Notes under the pieces: generated by a model | What the model saw: only the letters and a program-made list of their open reading frames with translations | Databases searched by the model: none | Told to the model about the DNA's origin: nothing | DNA from: a virus | DNA: 22,460 bases | Strand: one strand, 5' to 3' | IMG/VR virus record: IMGVR_UViG_3300006802_000641 | Location: 1 to 22,460 of that record | Part shown: positions 3,850 to 5,751 of the stretch, one piece after another | How the letters are laid out: every line of letters starts with the position of its first letter | Numbering within the stretch: position 1 is the first letter of the stretch | Translations under genes and position numbers: made by a program

Positions 3850-4016
3850 ATAAAGATAAATTACTAAGATGGCTTGCCGAACAGGTTTATTATTATGATA
3901 TTAATAGTAAGCCGTTTAAGTATTTTAACTTTCGTGATTTTGAAATTGATGAGAGAGAATGGGATGAAGTAATGTTTAGAATTATGAAAGAATGCAATAT
4001 GGAGGAAGAAGAATGA
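3846..4016 (+). CDS. Small hypothetical protein, 56 aa
   Basis: A 56-residue protein starting at ATG 3846, which overlaps the previous stop (ATGA) and follows GGAGGAAGAAG. It is rich in aromatic and acidic residues (EQVYYYD, FKYFNFRDFEIDE) and ends in NMEEEE. That last stretch is encoded by an 18-base sequence also present at 3832-3849 and 14007-14024, and provides the ribosome site for the next gene. Function unknown. Confidence 0.55.
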   Translation: MNKDKLLRWLAEQVYYYDINSKPFKYFNFRDFEIDEREWDEVMFRIMKECNMEEEE

Positions 4017-4231
4017 GAGCGGCAAAAAATATTACAATTGTAAAACGAGATGAAGGAAACCGCGACGGTATCTATTATGCACCACAACCCTACGTTGGTG
4101 TTGTAGTAGATTCGACAGTTGGTTTCAATGAAGGGACGCGAGTTATCTTTAAGGATGGCTTCGAATTTACATGGGACAATGTGAACTATGTTGCCCTAGA
4201 TTTGTTCGAGATTTTGGCGGTGATTGAATGA
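4013..4231 (+). CDS. groES: GroES-like co-chaperonin (short)
   Basis: A 72-residue protein. The start at 4013 is chosen over an in-frame ATG at 3992 because of the GGAGG upstream and the ATGA overlap. The pattern fits GroES/Cpn10: an N-terminal strand ITIVKRDE; a loop with a single GIYYAPQ in place of the longer mobile loop; GVVVDSTVG like the GEVVAVG strand; EGTRVIFKDG like the GDRVLF segment; and a C-terminus FEILAVIE nearly identical to the DILAVIE ending of many GroES proteins. GroES is usually ~97 residues, so the mobile loop or roof region is shortened. It would cap the GroEL ring encoded immediately downstream with a four-base overlap; that gene order is itself supporting evidence. Confidence 0.65.
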   Translation: MRAAKNITIVKRDEGNRDGIYYAPQPYVGVVVDSTVGFNEGTRVIFKDGFEFTWDNVNYVALDLFEILAVIE

Positions 4232-5751
4232 AGTTTGGAATTGAGGCGCGTGATGCCCTGAGAAGCGGTATTCAACAAGTCGCTGATGCGGTGGGATGCA
4301 CACTTGGCCCTGCTACTAAATCTGTAATCATCAACCGTCAAGGTGATATCGCACCATTGGTTGTGAACGATGGTGTAACAATTGCGAAGCATATTGTTCT
4401 TGAAGACCCCTATGAATATGCGGGTGCAAAACTTCTCATCGAAGTAGCACAACGCGCACAAGAGCAAGCAGGTGATGGAACTACAACCGCCACCGTTCTT
4501 GCTGATGCTTTTATCCGTTATGGATTTGATGAAGTAGTTAAGAGCAATAGACCCCGTGCAGAAATCCGACGTGAGTTAGAAGAAGCGGCTGAAGAGGTTA
4601 TCAGGTCTATTAGAGCGTTTACTGCTCCTATTACTGAGGATAAAGATATTCTAAATGTAGCCACTATTTCCGCCAATGGAGATTCAAAACTGGGTGAATT
4701 AATTACCCAAGCTTTTAAGGAAGTAGGTGTGGAAGGAATTATTACCATTGAACCCTCGGTTAGAGGTGAAGATAATCTAACCATTGTTGATGGCTATGAG
4801 TGTGAAAAGGGCTACATTAGTCCACTGTTTAAGAAGATTCTCGGACCTAAAACTGTGATGGAAAATGCGTTGGTAGTAGTTAGTAACGCTAGCATCCAGT
4901 CCTTTGATGAATTGGTTCCGGCTATCAAAATCTCACAAGCAAAGAAGCAACCGTTGGTTGTCGTCTGCCGAGAGATTTCGGGAGCGGCTCTACAATCTGT
5001 GGCTATCAACGTATCGTCGGGCAATTTCCAAATGTGCGTTGTTCAAGCGGAAGACATTTCCTTTTGGCAAGATGAACGACTTGGTGACCTATCCGCAGTT
5101 ACTGGCTCCATTTTCTACAACGAACAAATTGGAATGCGACTTAACGATATTACTTCTGAAGAGATTGCGACAGTGGGTAAGGTAATTATTACCGCAGAAA
5201 GGACTACCTTTATTGACTATGAAGGTGAGCGAATTAACATCCGCATTGGTGAAATTGCTGACGACTTATCAATCGCTGATAATGAATTTTACATTAAGAA
5301 GCATAACTCACGTTTAGCTAGACTAAAGGCTAAAGCAGCCGTTATTGAAGTATTTGGTATTTCGGAACAGGAAGTGAAGAATAAACTAGACCGCTTAGAC
5401 GATGCGCTAAATGCAACACGGGCTGCTCTTGAAGAAGGTGCAGTTCCCGGTTGTGGAGCATTATTTTCAAACATGGCCGCAAACGATGAATTTCCTAATT
5501 GGATTAGAGTTTCCTTAATGGCTCCATTGTGTAGAATAATGTCTAACTATAACGACCGTTCTTTTAAAGAAAATATGTCTTTAGTGAAGGGGGCAGAAAA
5601 ATACATGCCCGTCTTCTCAGAAGGAAAGGTTGTTAGTTGGGATAAAGCATCCCATATTATTGACCCCGCTAAGGTGGTTATTTCCTCGCTACGCTCCGCC
5701 GTAAGTGTAGCAGGTTATGTATTAACGGCAGAATGTGTAATTGGTGAATGA
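4228..5751 (+). CDS. groEL: Chaperonin GroEL, group I (Hsp60)
   Basis: A 507-residue ATP-dependent folding chaperonin. The equatorial ATP-site motifs are intact: TLGP (25-28), DGVTIAK (48-54), GDGTTTAT (82-89, with Asp 83 matching the catalytic region), and near the C-terminal equatorial part DDALNATRAALEEG, which retains the Asp equivalent to GroEL D398. The C-terminus VAGYVLTAECVIGE matches the GroEL ending VAGLxLTTEC. These are group I features, not thermosome features. It is ~40 residues shorter than E. coli GroEL and lacks the GGM tail, suggesting loss in the apical domain and tail. It would form a ring working with the GroES-like protein upstream, probably folding virion or replication proteins. 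GGTGAT precedes the overlapping ATG. Confidence 0.93.
   Translation: MKFGIEARDALRSGIQQVADAVGCTLGPATKSVIINRQGDIAPLVVNDGVTIAKHIVLEDPYEYAGAKLLIEVAQRAQEQAGDGTTTATVLADAFIRYGFDEVVKSNRPRAEIRRELEEAAEEVIRSIRAFTAPITEDKDILNVATISANGDSKLGELITQAFKEVGVEGIITIEPSVRGEDNLTIVDGYECEKGYISPLFKKILGPKTVMENALVVVSNASIQSFDELVPAIKISQAKKQPLVVVCREISGAALQSVAINVSSGNFQMCVVQAEDISFWQDERLGDLSAVTGSIFYNEQIGMRLNDITSEEIATVGKVIITAERTTFIDYEGERINIRIGEIADDLSIADNEFYIKKHNSRLARLKAKAAVIEVFGISEQEVKNKLDRLDDALNATRAALEEGAVPGCGALFSNMAANDEFPNWIRVSLMAPLCRIMSNYNDRSFKENMSLVKGAEKYMPVFSEGKVVSWDKASHIIDPAKVVISSLRSAVSVAGYVLTAECVIGE

Follow-up and report, generated by a model that had tools for sequence, protein, structure and literature searches.

The GroES–GroEL locus

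The window, that is, the whole stretch of DNA analysed here, is a virus record of 22,460 bases that carries a GroES and GroEL pair on its + strand. The first CDS (4013..4231, +) encodes a reduced GroES co-chaperonin of 72 amino acids, assigned from its ORF, profiles, relatives and predicted fold. The second (4228..5751, +) encodes a group I chaperonin GroEL of 507 amino acids without the Gly-Met tail, assigned from its ORF, profiles, a tree and its fold. The ORF coordinates agree with the 72 residues and the four-base overlap given in an earlier note on this DNA: the stop codon of GroES and the start codon of GroEL share the letters ATGA (4228..4231, +), an overlap that suggests the two genes may be translationally coupled. 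A Shine–Dalgarno-like GGAGG, read from the sequence (4001..4005, +), precedes the GroES start codon, ATG 4013. A longer GroES beginning at the upstream start at 3992 was considered and rejected because GGAGG sits before ATG 4013.

The next gene of the cassette is a clamp loader of the RFC small subunit type (5756..6655, +; profile matches). A clamp loader also lies 3′ of GroEL in the related contig L001, which has the same gene order and a GroEL 86% identical to that of the window, and in L036, where it follows after one small ORF. A second, nearly identical contig (35,972 bases) has the same pair, matching at 99.7% over 1739 bases with five differences. Comparison with L001 points to purifying selection on both genes, with a dN/dS of about 0.1 for GroEL and of 0.06–0.16 for GroES, the latter varying with the method. 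Searches of a phage collection with the window DNA and the small ORF (near and protein searches) gave no match.

The replication genes of the window comprise PolB, RFC, a PCNA-like sliding clamp, a primase-like gene and exonucleases, and are of the archaeal-virus type, as the earlier note had recognized. Among named viruses, those with the closest PolB are tailed viruses of haloarchaea, at about 25%. The window itself is a 22 kb fragment, and related contigs reach 90.8 and 92.3 kb; a size of about 90–100 kb is typical of Magrovirales. On the gene set, the size of these relatives and PolB, and not on comparison with a named magrovirus sequence, the window looks like a magrovirus; it is probably a marine virus with an archaeal host.

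Three further genes should be recorded. The fragment at 1–519 (+) resembles a JAB/JAMM metalloprotease (HTHPFG...SGTD; Pfam Prok-JAB E 0.011, below the cut-off), and JAB/JAMM-like genes also occur upstream of GroES in L037, L038, L039, L135 and L166. The 89-aa protein encoded at 857–1126 (+) resembles a histone fold by eye, and the one line of support for this is that HmvA is matched weakly in the PDB (E 0.085). At 16462–17139 (+), adjoining the primase-like gene, there is an ERCC4 nuclease with a helix-hairpin-helix domain (E 9e-20).

Annotation of the large protein

The earlier note had called the large protein a bacterial-type GroEL and not a thermosome, and this reading is borne out. The motifs TLGP, GDGTTTAT, ALNATRAALEEG and AGYVLTAEC are all found in it, it matches PHROG 5725 ("chaperonin groEL") at E 1e-107 (362 bits), and the NCBIfam GroEL models score up to 368 bits. 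A thermosome (group II) identity was ruled out by the scores of the thermosome models, at most 66 bits, and by the tree described below. The predicted model has the fold of a full GroEL at a mean pLDDT of 78; it is poor at residues 26–55 and 442–476, with values under 50 in the second of these regions. By profiles, tree and fold, the protein is a group I chaperonin.

Alignment with E. coli GroEL, from which we take the ATP/Mg, apical and inter-ring roles of the aligned positions, places the ATPase residue Asp48 (E. coli D52) at 4369..4371 (+), the nucleotide-binding motif GDGTT (E. coli 86–90) at 4471..4485 (+) and the catalytic aspartate Asp392 (E. coli D398) at 5401..5403 (+). Positions D52, D87, T89, T90 and D398 are conserved in 13/13 magrovirus-type GroELs, and D495 in all 12 that cover that region. 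Eight of the nine apical positions for GroES and substrate are hydrophobic in the window protein, and the ninth is Ser, as it is in E. coli.

Other regions are less well kept. The adenine-side stretch N479-A480-A481 and the 420–470 segment of E. coli GroEL are divergent or shortened in the subgroup to which the window protein belongs, where the residues at the E. coli inter-ring positions have also changed. The alignment is weak at these positions, and their loss is therefore suggestive only; given also the poor model at 442–476, full GroEL activity is uncertain.

Annotation of the small protein

Single-sequence searches are a poor guide to the small protein. Against Pfam it matched no family and did not reach the Cpn10 cut-off, which is a detection threshold and not a defining property of GroES; against the NCBIfam GroES model it gave a weak match (E 0.041); and a single-sequence search of the PDB returned no GroES, the best match being an unrelated microcephalin (E 0.008). 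Its relatives are more informative. The equivalent ORFs adjoining GroEL in G005, G006 and G007 exceed the Pfam Cpn10 cut-off, and a profile of three relatives matches the window protein at 2.3e-7. A profile of 11 magrovirus-type small proteins, searched against the PDB, matched Thermus Cpn10 (E 1.3e-5) and Cpn20 (1.5e-6), with ribosomal proteins following from 0.09.

Since this 11-sequence profile includes most of the proteins that it then found, a profile built only from canonical GroES (132 ordinary sequences, one of them a 54-residue fragment) is the less circular test. When 810 ORFs from 13 contigs were ranked with it, places 1 to 10 were all held by the ORF upstream of GroEL, in 10 of the 13 contigs; the window ORF came 9th (E 0.35), those of L040 and L166 came 12th and 13th, and that of L135 was not found. 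The predicted structure (pLDDT 87) is a GroES beta-barrel, for which Foldseek lists GroES chains first (best E 2.3e-4). By its relatives, its rank with the canonical profile and its predicted fold, the 72-aa ORF is a GroES, in keeping with the GroES-like barrel that the earlier note had proposed.

That note had also described the protein as reduced by a shortened mobile loop. This part stands, and a further reduction that it had left unnamed must be added: in the alignment with E. coli GroES, the window protein has no roof hairpin and is about 7 residues shorter in the region of the mobile loop. The shortened loop spans residues 13–27 or thereabouts (4049..4093, +) in the alignment and is the block of lowest pLDDT in the model. 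Within it, GIYY (4067..4078, +) aligns with GIVL, which we take to be the anchor of E. coli GroES to GroEL. The window GroES thus appears to retain a putative hydrophobic GroEL-binding tripeptide in its shortened loop. Other magrovirus-type GroES have SGII, GHFV, SGIL, SGIV and similar anchors at this place, hydrophobic in most.

The small size is a property of the group. Eleven magrovirus-type GroES (the A6 set) are 72–78 aa long, whereas 131 of 132 ordinary GroES sequences measure 84–99 aa and the best Cpn10 match per genome in 15 bacterial genomes spans 87–94 residues (controls: 15 bacterial genome loci and 50 viral loci, each drawn from at least 80). Short viral GroES are not unique to this group, since BFVD includes a 78-residue protein named GroES from an uncultured Caudovirales phage. 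Among phage-like loci, L147 and L153 have an 84-residue GroES; together with L154 the range is 84–87, apparently without the roof hairpin, and the GroELs of L147 and L153 also lack the Gly-Met tail.

Distribution and descent

A scan with a PolB alignment identified 28 related loci. Cpn60 is present in 11 of the 18 PolB-linked records searched, and the records without a match are or may be fragments. In following up the earlier note's proposal to look for the pair in related viral contigs, we found that GroEL is preceded by a small GroES-like ORF in 11/11 GroEL-bearing PolB-linked records, a count made with a profile built partly from these same records. The two genes overlap by four bases in six of the 11, and in three an extra ORF lies between them. 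In L040 and L041 GroES and GroEL are separated by an extra 110-aa ORF; L042 is apparently a near-copy.

A maximum-likelihood tree with 49 rows unites the 13 magrovirus-type GroELs in a single group (100/99), which falls within the group I sequences; they do not group with thermosomes. These 13 rows stand for 16 records; L041 and L042, apparently near-copies of L040, and L137, apparently one of L135, were omitted. The other rows are 13 genome loci from at least 80, plus L208; 19 other viral-contig loci from at least 80, plus L209 and L210; and L207 as the outgroup. Four records (L135, L140, L166 and L211) were called magrovirus-type before the tree was made, on the strength of neighbouring genes and the small GroES and not of a polymerase link; the row for L211 is truncated and its branch is long. 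Given that all magrovirus-type GroELs sampled fall in one clade, the gene was probably gained once and early, as judged from these sequences, and would be no peculiarity of this virus. That it was transferred from a bacterium, or from an archaeon that has a group I system, is plausible. A GroEL profile search of genome contigs recovered mostly bacterial GroEL, with no archaeon named among the matches listed.

The outgroup deserves separate mention. L207, a contig from a Maricaulis MAG, encodes a chaperonin of the thermosome type (400 bits), and the neighbouring gene is an exonuclease with 42% identity to that of the window; therefore, related viruses use one chaperonin group or the other, as had been reported before (PMC5332604). 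The same MAG, Maricaulis sp. IN14 (L051, L207), holds one magrovirus-like contig with the GroES/GroEL pair and one with the thermosome, and these are probably mis-binned virus DNA.

Comparison with known systems

The presence of a GroEL/GroES pair in this group of viruses is already published, and the finding is to that extent mostly known (PMC5332604, PMC10768690). In the portion of Nishimura et al. (2017) drawn on here, 58 genomes of Marine Group II viruses are reported to include 38 that encode chaperonins, of which the 18 from clade 1 are thermosomes and the 20 from clades 2–4 are GroELs; the hosts are said to hold both chaperonin groups, and the viral sequences to group with those of the hosts (PMC5332604). 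Clades 2–4 resemble the window in being tailed viruses with a group I GroEL and archaeal-type replication genes; unlike in the window, a small lid is not described for them, the word "GroES" being absent from the main text (PMC5332604). The 2023 ICTV profile of the Aoguangviridae lists both chaperonin GroEL and cochaperonin GroES, and these viruses (order Magrovirales) resemble the window in their replisome genes and their two opposed gene clusters as well as in the GroEL and GroES genes (PMC10768690). This likeness is by description and not by sequence, and the reference genome ON649702 has a G+C content of 31.5% whereas the window has 38–46% in 2-kb steps. When the available text of PMC10160649 was searched for terms, chaperonins did not come up.

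The puzzle of an archaeal virus with bacterial genes, as the earlier note saw it, is mostly explained by these published group I chaperonins of hosts and viruses together with the single GroEL clade. Among the open-licence papers listed by literature searches on magroviruses, Marine Group II viruses and marine archaea, none describes a small GroES in these viruses in its title or the opening lines of its abstract, and the consistent size of about 72–78 residues seems to be undescribed until now.

Three better-known systems offer points of reference. The window pair resembles E. coli GroEL/GroES in operon order, fold, ATPase residues and loop anchor; it differs in the length of GroES (72 aa against 97 aa) and its missing roof hairpin, and in a GroEL that has no Gly-Met tail and different inter-ring positions. 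T4 gp31 is likewise a viral co-chaperonin without roof loops, as far as the source text describes it (PMC6318259), and its fold matches the window GroES at Z 7.2–8.1. Its loop is longer than that of GroES (22 residues against 16), whereas that of the window protein is shorter, and gp31 uses the host GroEL, whereas the window virus encodes a GroEL alongside its GroES. The chaperonin of phage EL is, like the window GroEL, a divergent viral group I chaperonin; in the part of the study consulted, it shows no interaction with the GroES of E. coli, is proposed to be non-encapsulating and dissociates into single rings (PMC7185714).

Proposed function and alternatives

We consider it very likely that the window belongs to a magrovirus-type tailed virus with its own group I folding chamber, made by adjacent and probably co-expressed GroES and GroEL genes, whose assembly, binding and activity we infer. 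In this scheme, folding chamber and lid would be encoded among the replication genes. GroEL would bind ATP and would use its conserved hydrophobic apical face to capture unfolded proteins; the small GroES would form a ring, and its GIYY loop would dock into the same apical groove of GroEL. Once docked, GroES would cover the chamber and set off folding inside it. Because the roof hairpins are lacking, the top of the cap may be open, as in T4 gp31. A likely use would be the folding of abundant or difficult viral proteins independently of host chaperonins; the special folding client that the earlier note had implied is speculative.

One could go further and propose a distinct minimal machine, in which a roofless, compact-loop GroES of about 72–78 residues and a GroEL without the Gly-Met tail and E. 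coli-type ring contacts would work as single rings with an open-topped dome for a large or protruding viral client, related viruses using a thermosome for the same job; we regard this as unlikely.

Three alternatives to a self-contained chamber should be kept in mind. The viral GroEL might be a holdase that does not encapsulate its substrates, and the small protein, a GroES relative that has degenerated or been repurposed, might have ceased to cap it. The phage EL chaperonin, with its single rings and lack of interaction with E. coli GroES in the part of that study consulted, is a precedent (PMC7185714); in addition, neither the roof nor the full loop is left in the small protein, and the GroEL has not kept the E. 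coli inter-ring positions. Such a loss of function is nevertheless unlikely when most of the small proteins have a hydrophobic loop anchor, purifying selection acts, the small protein lies upstream of GroEL throughout the sampled clades and the apical face of GroEL is still hydrophobic.

A partnership of the small protein with the host GroEL, and not the viral one, would follow the example of T4 gp31 as its source text presents it (PMC6318259), and the hosts are reported to have a group I GroEL in the portion of PMC5332604 cited above. We give this little credence: every sampled GroEL-bearing record has the small ORF adjoining or near its GroEL, with the four-base overlap in 6/11. That the ORF is some other small beta-barrel, such as an MDR-like fold, is hardly credible and was rejected on the fold matches and the canonical-profile ranking: single-sequence searches do miss GroES and the fold is also that of MDR oxidoreductases (Z up to 6.2), but GroES, gp31 and Cpn20 hold the first 16 rows of the structural comparison (Z 7.2–9.9), relatives exceed the Cpn10 cut-off and the ORF adjoins GroEL.

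The pair is a cassette kept by one lineage of marine-archaeal-looking viruses and no one-off oddity. The occurrence of a thermosome in its place in L207 would offer a way to ask what viral protein depends on a cage of either kind. The remaining interest lies in the consistently small, roofless lid, of which the window GroES is near the lower size limit among those compared; if this small lid works, it would define what a group I co-chaperonin can dispense with.
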